Virus record (IMG/VR): IMGVR_UViG_3300048928_000103
Span: 1-39,073 of that record
Direction: 5' to 3' (one strand)
DNA length: 39,073 bases
Origin: a virus
Part shown: piece after piece, positions 2,112 to 38,660 of the stretch
How the letters are laid out: each line of letters opens with the position of its first letter
How positions within the stretch are numbered: the first letter of the stretch is position 1
Notes under the pieces: generated by a model
The model's database searches: none
The model's input: only the letters and a program-made list of their open reading frames with translations
What the model was told of the DNA's origin: nothing
Position numbers and translations under genes: made by a program

Positions 2112-2855
2112 TTAACCCTCCCACCCAATCGCCTGGAACAGGCCCATTTTAGGGTGATACCAGCGGGTGCCGCGCGGTTCAGCTTCTGACATCATCTGGC
2201 GAAATGCGGCCATAAACGGCTCCAGTTCGACAATAGCCCTACGCGACAACAGCCCGTCTGGAGTCATAAATTCGTGCGTGTCTGTCGGGATGCGGTAGGC
2301 ATTGACCAAATTCCGGCACTTGGCGTCACTCATTCCGCTTTTGGCTACCACCTGGCGGTAACCGACATATCCGGCGCGCATGGTCCCGCGTTTGATGTTC
2401 TCCACAGCTTCTGTGACCGTTTCGATCTGCTCTTCAACATGATTAAGGCGCTTCTGCTGGCGAACGGCGTCGGCGGCCATTGCAGCGATCATCTCGATTT
2501 CCGTCAGCGGCGCGCGAGTGCGGAAATAGCTGTTAACCAGTTCGCGCTGAACCTGCCAGGCAAGATCATCGTTAAACGGCTTCGTCAACATCAGGTAACC
2601 AGACTCGAAAAGAATGATTCCTTTGGCAGTGCGCGCGGCAAAGGCATCAGAAAGTGACTCCGTACGTATTACGTCCGCAGTCATTTCAAGAAAATCCACC
2701 CCTTCGATAAAGTGAGAACGGTTGCGGTTAAACGCAGCACGAGCGGTTCCTTCAGGTCGCTGGTGGACTTCATCAATCATCGCCAGCGTCACAACGCGCT
2801 GACCGCGATATTCGACTGCCGGCAGCTGTTTGTTATTGATCGTTACAGTGTTCAC
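2112..2855 (-). CDS. ORF6N-domain protein, candidate antirepressor-like regulator
   Basis: The first 110 residues resemble the ORF6N DNA-binding domain of phage proteins (VEYRGQRVVTLAMIDEVHQR, then GILLFESGYLML-type strands; here GIILFESGYLMLTKPF). The rest is a helical linker (about 115-155) and a C-terminal block (GYRQVVAKSGMSDAKCRNLV). ORF6N and related KilA-N/BRO domains are common in phage antirepressors and regulators, but the target here is unknown. The start is GTG 2855, supported by GAGGAGG at the right distance. It is 247 aa, close to family size, and ends two bases before the start of the next gene. Confidence 0.75.
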   Translation of the reverse strand: MNTVTINNKQLPAVEYRGQRVVTLAMIDEVHQRPEGTARAAFNRNRSHFIEGVDFLEMTADVIRTESLSDAFAARTAKGIILFESGYLMLTKPFNDDLAWQVQRELVNSYFRTRAPLTEIEMIAAMAADAVRQQKRLNHVEEQIETVTEAVENIKRGTMRAGYVGYRQVVAKSGMSDAKCRNLVNAYRIPTDTHEFMTPDGLLSRRAIVELEPFMAAFRQMMSEAEPRGTRWYHPKMGLFQAIGWEG

Positions 2856-3445: not shown

Positions 3446-3867
3446 CACTGAACTCCTTTCGGCTTGATGGCCTGCAGTGCATCAACCTCTTTAACGAATC
3501 GGTCATGCATCGCGTCCCATTTCTCACACCATTTCTCCATTTCTCGCTTGCGCGCCAAGATGCGACGCAGACGGCGAACACAACGCTGGTGTGCCATGAA
3601 ATACTCGGTGGTTACGCCGCCACGCTGCCAACAATTCAGCTCTGGATTGAGTGGGTGGACTGCCTGCACATCCGGGTGCCGCTGCTCGAAGCCGGAGCGA
3701 TAAAATGCTTCTGAAGTCATAAAGAACGCCAGATAGCGGATCGCCGTATCTCGCGTGAAGCATTTTTTTATACGTCCGTGGCGTACTGCTACGAACAGTG
3801 GGCCAACTGGCGTATCGTGTTTCTGTAATGCCAGGTCAATCATGCTTACGGTGCGTTTATCGTTCAT
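3445..3867 (-). CDS. Hypothetical phage protein, basic
   Basis: This 140-aa protein of unknown function is rich in Arg, Lys and aromatic residues, with a strongly basic helical segment about residues 94-112 (RCVRRLRRILARKREMEKW). That could contact nucleic acid, but no domain is recognised. It starts at ATG 3867, overlapping the stop of the preceding gene by four bases (ATGA), and shares one base with the next start. The tight packing marks it as part of one coupled polycistron. Confidence 0.7.
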   Translation of the reverse strand: MNDKRTVSMIDLALQKHDTPVGPLFVAVRHGRIKKCFTRDTAIRYLAFFMTSEAFYRSGFEQRHPDVQAVHPLNPELNCWQRGGVTTEYFMAHQRCVRRLRRILARKREMEKWCEKWDAMHDRFVKEVDALQAIKPKGVQ

Positions 3868-4085
3868 TTCCGGTCCTTAACTTTGCTGTATCGTTCGTGA
3901 CTCATTACTTCCCAGTTCTTTCCGCCATCGCGGGAGAGCAGCCTCCAGCGGTGATTAACCTTGAGACTCAAATTACCGGAGCCGTGCATACGGCAGGGGT
4001 GAATGCGCCTTGCTCTGAACTGGCTTAAAACATGTGCTGCTTTGAGGTGAACCCATTCAGGAATTCGTATCGCTGTCAGTGCCAC
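3864..4085 (-). CDS. Small basic phage protein
   Basis: A 73-aa, strongly basic protein with the tract HRWRLLSRDGGKNWEVMSHE. It has a ParE/HigB-like flavour in length and charge, but I cannot assign it to that family. The start is GTG 4085: GGAGG lies six bases upstream, and it falls inside the 3' end of the preceding gene (29-bp overlap in another frame). It ends in an ATGA overlap with the next gene. Confidence 0.65.
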   Translation of the reverse strand: MALTAIRIPEWVHLKAAHVLSQFRARRIHPCRMHGSGNLSLKVNHRWRLLSRDGGKNWEVMSHERYSKVKDRK

Positions 4086-4885: not shown

Positions 4886-4993
4886 TTAACGACCATATGC
4901 TTTTTTAAGATAAAGACGAGCGATTACCTCGTAACCGCTGGCCGCATAAAGGCATGCTGTTCTATATGCCGATTTATCAATGATGAAAGTCAT
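4886..4993 (-). CDS. Short coupled gene, 35 codons
   Basis: This short frame encodes MTFIIDKSAYRTACLYAASG and ends in EVIARLYLKKAYGR. Its ATG overlaps the stop of the S24-like gene as ATGA, and its stop lies two bases before the next ATG, so it fills the gap exactly. That packing, and a folded-looking composition (Tyr/Ala-rich amphipathic helices), argues that it is a real translated gene. Its function is unknown. Confidence 0.65.
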   Translation of the reverse strand: MTFIIDKSAYRTACLYAASGYEVIARLYLKKAYGR

Positions 4994-5376
4994 ACAAAGC
5001 GCCTCACAGCCAAAGAAGCGACCACACGACCGTGAATTTTGATTTCTTTCTGTTCATCGGTATTAAGGGTGAAAGTTTCGTAATGATGGTTATCAGAGAT
5101 TATTTTTATTGAGCCATCAGCTAATGGCTCAATTCTCTTAATGAAAAGGCATGGGCGACCAAAAGCATCCATTGTGTAAACATAAATGCCAGAGGTAAGC
5201 GCACGTCCACCGCAATCAACGAAAGCCACAATCTCACATGGTTCGATGGTCGGCTGCATTGAATCACCTTCCATCCGGCAGCTTTGAACGCGGTTGCCAA
5301 AGTCATTAATATTGTCTGAACCGAACAGCATTTGAGGAGTTTTTATTGGCTGATTAATCGCGATAGCATTTTGCAT
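4990..5376 (-). CDS. S24 (LexA/CI C-terminal type) peptidase-like protein without HTH
   Basis: The 128-aa protein matches the dimerisation and self-cleavage domain of LexA/CI-type repressors. Ser39 lies in GDSMQPTI and the general-base Lys80 in FIKRIE, 41 residues apart, with the expected strands between. There is no N-terminal helix-turn-helix and no obvious Ala-Gly or Cys-Gly cleavage site before Ser39. It is the second gene of the PL operon. It could modulate the full-length repressor by mixed dimers, act as a stand-alone peptidase, or be a UmuD-like partner. The start at ATG 5376 fits GAGG eight bases upstream; ATG 5382 is too close. Confidence 0.8.
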   Translation of the reverse strand: MQNAIAINQPIKTPQMLFGSDNINDFGNRVQSCRMEGDSMQPTIEPCEIVAFVDCGGRALTSGIYVYTMDAFGRPCLFIKRIEPLADGSIKIISDNHHYETFTLNTDEQKEIKIHGRVVASLAVRRFV

Positions 5377-5388
5377 TTTCATTTCCTC

Positions 5389-5410
5389 AGGGTGTGTTTT
5401 CCCCCACCCT
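5389..5410 (-). other. Intergenic hairpin in PL operon
   Basis: AGGGTG and CACCCT form a 6-bp stem around a 10-base loop just upstream of the S24-like gene. It includes part of that gene's ribosome-site region, so it could limit translation. No U-tract follows on the leftward transcript, so it is not a typical terminator. Confidence 0.3.
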
Positions 5411-5449
5411 AAAAGATGTTAATTATGATTAATTGAGTTAATTAGTTAG

Positions 5450-5743
5450 TTAAATAGCAGAGAACATTTTCTTAATGTCAGGATGGTCATCAATGATTTT
5501 TTTAGCATCATCACATGCTTCTTCATATGACTTGAAGAAATCAACCAGAACAAAATAATTACCTACACGTTCGTAGATAGCGAATTCCAAACCGTCAATA
5601 AAAGTGGTGTTAAATTCGTAATCAAAATCATTCTGATGAGGTTGCGCAGCTCGTAAATAACTCCAGTGCGAATTTGCTGCCTTGAGCTTGGCGTGGATAT
5701 CAAATTCCTTACTCGCTGGGTTTGGTTGGGAGGTTATGTTCAT
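5450..5743 (-). CDS. First gene of the PL operon, unknown function
   Basis: A 97-aa acidic protein (FKSYEEACDDAKKIIDDHPD near the C-terminus) with no recognised family. It holds the position that N occupies in lambda, immediately downstream of PL, but it is acidic rather than arginine-rich and is not an N-type antiterminator. ATG 5743 has GGAG eight bases upstream. It is AT-rich relative to the late genes. Transcription from PL should be repressed by CI. Confidence 0.65.
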   Translation of the reverse strand: MNITSQPNPASKEFDIHAKLKAANSHWSYLRAAQPHQNDFDYEFNTTFIDGLEFAIYERVGNYFVLVDFFKSYEEACDDAKKIIDDHPDIKKMFSAI

Positions 5744-5774: not shown

Positions 5775-5803
5775 AGAATACTTAAGTATTAATTAAAGGT
5801 CAA
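5775..5803 (-). promoter_or_regulatory. Putative leftward early promoter PL
   Basis: On the minus strand, TTGACC (5798-5803) is separated by 17 bp from TATTCT (5775-5780), a good sigma-70 match. It reads into the gene starting at 5743. Operator-like dyads overlap the -10 region and flank the -35, as expected for a CI-repressed early promoter. Confidence 0.65.
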
Positions 5804-5815
5804 TGGTATTAATAC
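5777..5815. promoter_or_regulatory. Putative OL operators
   Basis: A perfect 14-bp palindrome AATACTTAAGTATT (5777-5790) and a second dyad GTATTAATAC (5806-5815) overlap PL. Both contain the AATAC/GTATT half-site that recurs in the cI-cro intergenic region, which suggests that one repressor binds both regions. Confidence 0.6.
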
Positions 5816-5865: not shown

Positions 5866-5894
5866 AATAAAAAAGCCGACGCTATGGTCGGCTT
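5866..5894 (-). terminator. Intrinsic terminator after cI
   Basis: AAGCCGAC pairs with GTCGGCTT around a 6-base loop and is followed on the minus strand by TTTTTTATT. It lies 20 bp beyond the repressor stop codon, separating the repressor transcript from the PL operon. Confidence 0.85.
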
Positions 5895-5914: not shown

Positions 5915-6607
5915 TCAGAAGATTGTTGATACCCAAAACAGTCTACCTAAAACCTCAAGGCTATCCATGTCTACTTCTTCATCAGGGTATTCATCAGAGT
6001 TATAGCTTCTGATTGTCACCTTATCTGGCCCAGATCTGTAGAGGATTTTTAACCTTTTCCATCCACCTTGGTTGATGCCGTAAATTTTACCATCAACGAT
6101 ACGCTTGTCATGGCAGTTTATGGCAACAGTAGAGCCATCAGCGATCACTGGCTCCATGCTATTTCCGTGTGCAGCAAAGCATAGAACGCCATCACCATCA
6201 CTATTAGCTCCCACCTTTCGCAATGTTGCTTTGGAAAACCTAAGTTTTTTGCCATTGTAATCATCATTAAGAGCGCTGCCATCTCCACATGCGAACTCGA
6301 TATCCTTCAAGTAAGGCACCTCTACCTCATCATCCTCAAGCGGCGTTTGCTTATCCCATGGGTCAATACCAAACATCCTTTGTTCTGGAGTTTTCGCGGG
6401 CCCCATGCTGCCTTCACCAGTGCTTAACCATATTGGATCTACATCCAACGCTTTGGCTATATCCACGATTTTTCCGCTGGACTGAGCTTTTCCTGAGGTT
6501 AGTTTTTGTATGGCCCCCTGACTTACCCCAACCCTATGCGCTAACTGACTTTGAGTAGCCCCGGCATGAGCCATCGCCAGCCTTAGTCTTTCTGCAAGTG
6601 TGTTCAT
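5915..6607 (-). CDS. cI: CI-type prophage repressor (XRE HTH plus S24 domain)
   Basis: This 230-aa repressor would bind OL and OR to maintain lysogeny. Residues 5-62 form an XRE helix-turn-helix (TQSQLAHRVGVSQGAIQKLT). Residues 98-225 form the S24 dimerisation and self-cleavage domain with catalytic Ser150 (GNSMEP) and Lys184 (WKRL). The likely RecA-stimulated cleavage site is Cys107-Gly108, upstream of Ser150 as in LexA-like proteins. The architecture and size are typical of lambdoid repressors induced by DNA damage. It is transcribed leftward, divergent from cro, probably from PRM, and ends at a strong terminator. Confidence 0.95.
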   Translation of the reverse strand: MNTLAERLRLAMAHAGATQSQLAHRVGVSQGAIQKLTSGKAQSSGKIVDIAKALDVDPIWLSTGEGSMGPAKTPEQRMFGIDPWDKQTPLEDDEVEVPYLKDIEFACGDGSALNDDYNGKKLRFSKATLRKVGANSDGDGVLCFAAHGNSMEPVIADGSTVAINCHDKRIVDGKIYGINQGGWKRLKILYRSGPDKVTIRSYNSDEYPDEEVDMDSLEVLGRLFWVSTIF

Positions 6608-6632: not shown

Positions 6633-6661
6633 ATTTAATACCATAGGATTAACCATGGCAA
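6633..6661 (-). promoter_or_regulatory. Candidate repressor maintenance promoter PRM
   Basis: Minus-strand TTGCCA (6656-6661) and TTAAAT (6633-6638) are 17 bp apart and read towards cI. An operator-like dyad (6634-6654) covers the whole region, which would allow self-regulation. The -10 match is only moderate. Confidence 0.4.
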
Positions 6662-6699
6662 GCGGATAATACTTGATTAATTATTCCTTTGGTATTATT
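6634..6699. promoter_or_regulatory. Putative OR operator region
   Basis: Two dyads share half-site and spacing. At 6634-6654 the arms are TTTAATACC and GGATTAACC around ATA. At 6679-6699 the arms are AATTATTCC and GGTATTATT around TTT. Further single half-sites (AATACT) occur at about 6668 and 6716. The same half-site recurs at OL. These are the expected binding sites of CI and Cro. Confidence 0.6.
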
Positions 6700-6701
6700 T
6701 T
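6673..6701 (+). promoter_or_regulatory. Candidate rightward early promoter PR
   Basis: TTGATT (6673-6678) and TATTTT (6696-6701) are 17 bp apart, upstream of cro and overlapping the OR dyad at 6679-6699. The hexamers are moderate matches, but the spacing and position agree with the PL design on the other side of cI. Confidence 0.45.
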
Positions 6702-6733
6702 ATATCTTTAATATTAATACTAAGGGCTTTGTT

Positions 6734-6976
6734 ATGACTGATGAGGTTTTTGAATCCCCAATGGCGAAAGCCGTGTACGTTGCTGGTGGGCAAAGTTCGC
6801 TTGCTAAAAAGGTTGGGGTTACGCAAGGAGCGGTCTGGAAGTGGGTCAGGGGGATCAAGAAAGTTTCTCCGGTCCATGCAGTGGCAGTCTCAAACGCAGT
6901 TAATGGAGTTGTTAAGCCTCATGAACTGCGTCCTGATTTGCCGACTCTTTTCCCCCACCCGGGCAATGAGGTGTGA
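6734..6976 (+). CDS. cro: Cro/YdaS-type transcriptional regulator
   Basis: An 80-aa DNA-binding protein with the helix-turn-helix GGQSSLAKKVGVTQGAVWKW and a conserved tail (VNGVVKPHELRPDLP). This is the YdaS-like family that takes the Cro role in many enterobacterial prophages. It is divergent from cI, with the operator region between them, and heads the early right operon. ATG 6734 is preceded by AAGG eight bases upstream; an earlier in-frame start would begin inside the operator. It likely represses cI transcription during lytic growth. Confidence 0.9.
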   Translation: MTDEVFESPMAKAVYVAGGQSSLAKKVGVTQGAVWKWVRGIKKVSPVHAVAVSNAVNGVVKPHELRPDLPTLFPHPGNEV

Positions 6977-38640: not shown

Positions 38641-38660
38641 TACTGTGTGAATATACAGTA
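38641..38660 (-). promoter_or_regulatory. LexA (SOS) box of the DinI-like gene
   Basis: TACTGTGTGAATATACAGTA has perfect CTGT-N8-ACAG ends with the flanking TA at each side. It covers a probable -10 (TATATT on the minus strand), so LexA would block the promoter until DNA damage. Confidence 0.92.

Follow-up and report, generated by a model that had tools for sequence, protein, structure and literature searches.

The window, a stretch of viral DNA of 39,073 nucleotides, carries late genes ~92–95% identical to those of the HK97-like coliphages LMessi, ECP1, HK542, and mEp390. Its leftward genes are arranged in the order cI, a PL-like promoter, a 97-aa ORF, a gene for an HTH-less S24 protein (here called the headless protein), a 35-aa ORF, small genes, an ORF6N gene, and an integrase gene. 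The CI repressor (230 aa; 5915–6607, minus strand; ORF list and Pfam) combines an HTH_3 and an S24 domain, and its likely cleavage site is the Cys-Gly in EFACGDG; an intrinsic terminator-like hairpin (5873–5894, minus strand) closes cI ahead of the leftward promoter. The 97-aa ORF that opens the leftward operon (5450–5743, minus strand; ORF list) matches no Pfam family and is swapped for unrelated genes in other phages, the sequences upstream of the headless gene differing between loci. The headless gene itself occupies 4990–5382 on the minus strand (130 aa; ORF list), and its stop codon is overlapped by the ATG of the 35-aa ORF (4886–4993, minus strand; ATGA coupling). Further along the same operon is an ORF6N protein (2112–2855, minus strand; Pfam ORF6N, 6.5e-13; phrog_1726, 3.4e-70), an ordinary anti-repressor separate from the headless protein. 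A protein with a ParE-like toxin domain (3864–4085, minus strand; Pfam, 2.3e-20; phrog_1525) is also encoded in this operon. On the plus strand, OR-like repeats (TTAATACC.. / ..GGTATTA) are located between cI and cro (6635–6726), followed by a Cro-type repressor of 80 aa with a YdaS_toxin/P22_Cro-like HTH (6734–6976; Pfam).

The PL-like promoter and the overlapping operator-like sequences TTAATACCAT and TTAATACTTAAGTATT, the latter read from the sequence, are located at 5775–5812 on the minus strand. A sigma-70-like site, TTGACC-17-TATTCT (5803–5775, minus strand), is overlapped by TTAATACCAT, a 10-mer that is present in the window at this site and in the cI-cro intergenic region and nowhere else (2 observed, 0.02 expected). 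No terminator was found between this site and the headless gene. The first-pass annotation had put the gene in a PL operon, and this placement agrees with the position, the promoter consensus, and the shared 10-mer, from which we infer the PL assignment; the count of promoter-like sites in the region does not exceed that in shuffled sequence. The sole LexA-box match in the window, TACTGTGTGAATATACAGTA (38641–38660; three mismatches to the consensus, none expected), lies near its right end, far from the headless gene, and there is no LexA box near the gene.

Two ATGs can serve as start codon of the headless gene, each preceded by a GAGG Shine-Dalgarno sequence. The second (M3, at 5376) gives a protein of 128 aa and is the only one of the two present in 18 of 69 distinct headless homologues; the limits first proposed, 4990–5376, correspond to this start, whereas the ORF extends to 5382. 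The protein matches Pfam Peptidase_S24 (PF00717) over residues 30–121 (E = 1.9e-9; 37.7 bits, against a curated cut-off of 23.3 bits for the profile) and no HTH family in a Pfam search, so that the earlier description of an HTH-less S24 protein beside a full CI was borne out. The catalytic dyad is formed by Ser41 and Lys82 (the serine first numbered Ser39 is the same residue counted from M3). Both are invariant, together with Arg83, Asn98, and Tyr101, in the 69 distinct sequences, and the GDSM and SDN..Y segments are nearly so (SDN and Tyr101 nearly or fully). Asn98 and the aromatic Tyr101, placed by eye, correspond to the surroundings of LexA-family active sites (markers according to PMC12984324).

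The chain begins ~40 residues ahead of the nucleophile. Among the 38–40 residues that precede Ser41 there is no AG or CG dipeptide, in agreement with the first reading, which had seen no obvious self-cleavage site. In every co-resident CI family examined, an Ala-Gly or Cys-Gly is located 37–45 residues before the nucleophile; with 38–40 residues ahead of its serine, the headless protein therefore leaves the scissile dipeptide outside. It has the make-up of a "born-cleaved" S24 domain, comparable to UmuD' or HumD of phage P1, and its start falls roughly at the cleavage point of CI and UmuD chains.

An AF2 model of the headless protein (pLDDT 81.7) shows the S24 domain, predicted well from residue 28 or so onwards, preceded by an arm of which residues 1–20 have a pLDDT under 55. 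The arm is predicted to be flexible or disordered, yet residues 10–31 are well conserved (mean entropy in the headless family 0.54 for residues 10–20 and 0.26 for residues 21–31, versus 0.40 for the domain), as would be expected for a binding arm; the stretch 21–31 is altered in the most distant headless members (L084, L085, and L094). A PDB sequence search with the headless protein returned no meaningful relative, and relatives were found by fold comparison. On structural realignment UmuD' (1ay9; Z = 12.5), the LexA C-terminal domain (12.3), and the lambda CI C-terminal domain (12.3) are tied, so the fold does not discriminate among them; in Foldseek's own ranking, LexA is present in the top 50, and UmuD' and CI are absent.

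These data bear on a role as a UmuD'- or HumD-like subunit, which during infection would take the place of UmuD' in host polymerase V and alter translesion synthesis or anti-recombination. The UmuD' homologue HumD of phage P1 (and N15 gp26) is likewise phage-encoded and HTH-less, lacks the cleaved segment, and has the Ser and Lys. It is of similar length (129 aa, versus 128–130 aa), the arm-plus-domain plan is alike, UmuD' is the top structural match, though tied, and HumD complements UmuD' (HumD facts according to the P1 record and the title of the paper cited there). The UmuD' arm contacts UmuC (PMC11791011), and the headless arm, predicted to be disordered, is conserved over residues 10–31. 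BLASTP, however, gave no real alignment between the headless protein and HumD, and the former is closest in sequence to CI C-terminal domains; HumD also has ADSH around its serine instead of GDSM and is LexA-controlled, with a LexA site in the P1 record, whereas the one LexA-box match in the window is far off at 38641. Orthology with HumD is ruled out by the sequence and by the absence of a LexA box near the headless gene, and a HumD-like role in polymerase V is regarded as improbable.

Relatives of the headless protein are encoded on at least 98 stretches in IMG/VR, the 80 kept being 73–98% identical to it. Further copies, 53–82% identical, are present in five genome-contig records, four from Enterobacterales and one labelled Chryseobacterium; the latter (L093) holds an enterobacterial-type copy (53%) and is probably contaminated or mislabelled. 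A close copy was found in 5 of 5426 complete E. coli genomes. The remaining genome matches inspected extend further at the N-terminus, by at least 86 residues, and are full repressors, with one exception, a 114-aa HTH-less S24 ORF (L125, 3986–4330; 32% identity) on a contig of an uncultured proteobacterium, which may be an independent headless case.

The headless gene is a real, conserved gene: the median dN/dS over 1894 pairs is 0.087, indicating purifying selection. A decayed repressor remnant is ruled out by this value and by the invariant dyad. Among the 60 contigs compared that carry the downstream gene phrog_8959, 7 have no intact copy within the stretch covered. In the isolated phage CharmingMan (L086, 3501–3895) the gene is split into two ORFs, both annotated as CI-like repressor; it is thus not essential for growth. 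In relatives without a headless gene (L248, L257–L260), two other small ORFs fill its slot.

The S24 proteins most like the headless protein are full-length repressors of the CI types c1, c3, and c9 (C-terminal domains 31–35% identical; lowest E, 6e-11). They share GDSM and KR with it; the HTH domain and the cleavage site that they carry are both missing from it. Its match to the window's own CI (E = 0.2) is weaker than to other CI families. Across the phages compared, taking as CI of each locus the nearest upstream HTH+S24 ORF, the CIs that adjoin headless genes fall into at least 14 families (an S24 CI, c10-type, is present in L055 and L057). The headless proteins are 76–98% identical across phages and the CIs mostly 21–30% identical; CI families whose closest headless proteins are 93–100% identical still have CIs that are mostly 21–30% identical. 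At least 34 changes of CI type are required on the headless gene tree (minimum 13; shuffled mean 47.6), and L043 and L053, for instance, are grouped on this tree, yet their CI families differ. Some clustering by CI type persists (34 versus 47.6), as expected for neighbouring genes.

The first-pass annotation had proposed, as one of three modes, that the headless protein pairs with the CI of its own phage in inactive mixed dimers, giving positive feedback on induction. A CI-type domain made from a CI-controlled operon adjoining cI speaks for such an antagonist. The headless protein nevertheless stays constant while unrelated CI families replace one another, which makes a dedicated mixed-dimer inhibitor of its own CI unlikely. 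The closest CI family found for it (~42 bits) is carried by relatives that lack the headless gene (L248, L257–L260), and the operon already holds the ORF6N anti-repressor. Mixed dimers are thus not supported, and antagonism of the cognate CI, highly improbable, is the least likely explanation when set against a trans-acting protease or a HumD-like helper; of the initial interpretation, the anatomy stands. By the same exchange of CI types, a dedicated partnership with the CI of this window is made unlikely. Since CI type is not tracked, a constant target, that is, a host protein, is more likely, and the target of the headless protein would be independent of CI. Cleavage of CI in trans, the second mode first proposed, is possible only as a broad-specificity activity.

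The headless gene is preceded by a 47-nt leader (5374–5420, minus strand). Besides the ribosome site, the leader holds two short inverted repeats, CACC..GGTG and GGTG..CACC, the stems of which are mutually exclusive; in L074 the first stem carries a compensatory change (CGCC/GGCG). It is constant in most headless loci whatever the CI type. The headless gene follows 71 of the 74 exact leader copies in IMG/VR (this count includes three with divergent or truncated reading frames, read by eye), and other genes follow 3 of 74. In L137, L185, and L193 the leader stands ahead of non-headless genes; in L193 it runs directly into the usual downstream neighbour of the headless gene, a clean absence. An Rfam search of the region gave nothing above gathering scores. 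The leader marks the left border of the exchangeable immunity block; it could serve in translational control or antitermination, or as a border for recombination.

Occupation of RecA is the best surviving of the three modes first proposed. We suggest, with a probability of a little under 0.4, that the headless protein is a natural decoy for RecA filaments, the counterpart of the engineered lambda mCI. Early leftward expression from PL would supply a stand-alone S24 domain, which would bind active RecA filaments; the RecA-stimulated self-cleavage of S24 proteins would be slowed, possibly strand exchange too, and both SOS and the action of RecA on phage DNA would be dampened. Because it has no scissile bond, the headless protein would not be consumed. 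Such a decoy would brake induction, protecting CI and LexA, the opposite of the feedback lock on induction first envisaged. The decoy is favoured by the fold, as UmuD', LexA, and lambda CI, the three tied matches, all bind RecA filaments; by the independence from CI (at least 14 families, 34 changes on the tree); and by the position of the gene among leftward accessory genes, where it is dispensable.

Strong precedent comes from an engineered HTH-less fragment of lambda CI (residues 101–229), which binds RecA-ssDNA with a KD of 36 nM. In vitro it delays the cleavage of LexA; it also blocks strand exchange and, in cells, inhibits SOS to an extent that rises with the dose (PMC6363387). In UmuD, contact with RecA is not attributed to the residues lost on cleavage, an arm-shortened form still appears to interact with RecA, and the best RecA cross-linkers, residues 34 and 81, lie in the portion that is kept after cleavage (PMC5342242). 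A phage protein that shields repressor from RecA is known in 434 Hex (PMC3564112), which is encoded in an immunity region and blocks RecA-stimulated repressor cleavage. It differs in that PRM drives its expression in lysogens and in that it selectively protects the repressors of 434 and P22, leaving out lambda CI and LexA; it is not reported there to contain an S24 domain, and the two proteins are set side by side by their descriptions.

The likeness to mCI, that is, CI(101–229) A152T P158T K192A, extends to an HTH-less CI C-terminal domain of ~14 kDa that is free in the cell. Unlike the headless protein, mCI is man-made, monomeric by mutation, and catalytically dead, and it keeps the cleavage-site segment (PMC6363387). 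Of these differences, the retained segment, missing here, and the monomeric state count against the decoy, as the headless protein may dimerise; so does the mere delay of LexA cleavage in vitro by mCI. A decoy also has no need of the dyad, and the invariance of Ser41 and Lys82 and near-invariance of GDSM and SDN..Y do not follow from it.

This invariant dyad, unexplained by the decoy, is the main reason for retaining a somewhat unlikely alternative, a ready-made trans-acting S24 protease of broad specificity that would cut the exposed Ala/Cys-Gly segment of LexA, UmuD, or resident or own CIs. The dyad is kept in all 69 sequences, and GDSM, SDN, and Tyr101 are kept completely or almost so, despite the absence of a cis substrate; the dyad's conservation fits a protease better than a decoy, though it may persist for structural reasons. 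In HumD, which has no need for self-cutting, GDSM has given way to ADSH, and the 186 CI, a repressor without a canonical active site, has lost the base (PMC12984324). A UmuD with a shortened, uncuttable arm cleaves UmuD S60A in trans (PMC5342242), and an AG or CG site is kept in all co-resident CI families examined; UmuD, however, cuts in trans inside a heterodimer, and the targets in question here are remote in sequence.

A different target altogether, such as a host regulator or an S24 repressor belonging to a rival prophage or defence element, with the domain acting as a peptide-binding module, would suit a neighbourhood of small accessory genes of the host-takeover type; a PADLOC search gave no match, and such a target is considered unlikely. 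Returning to the RecA decoy, and joining it with the protease, we would describe the headless protein, at rather less than even odds, as a pre-processed, uncleavable CI C-terminal domain with its Ser-Lys site kept, which targets the RecA filament or cleaves host S24 proteins in trans and is uncoupled from the exchangeable repressor of its own phage.

If RecA binding or S24 cutting in trans is true, many enterobacterial temperate phages, whatever their immunity type, carry an SOS modulator, and the headless gene is a phage counter-defence gene that affects the response of co-resident prophages to DNA damage. It would then be a case of a repressor that lost a domain and whose remaining half serves as a regulator in its own right, and it could provide a natural scaffold for SOS inhibitors.

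The family is already listed in PHROGs as phrog_6201, of which the headless protein is a full-length member (E = 7.8e-41, 139.8 bits; residues 1–129 on 1–120 of 121 positions); the family name says repressor, for a protein without a DNA-binding domain. Regardless of its target, the label "CI-like repressor" is misleading for the headless family and unfit for calling immunity. In other records the gene is labelled either "CI-like repressor" or "S24 family peptidase", the latter being the NCBI label of the copies in E. coli prophages.
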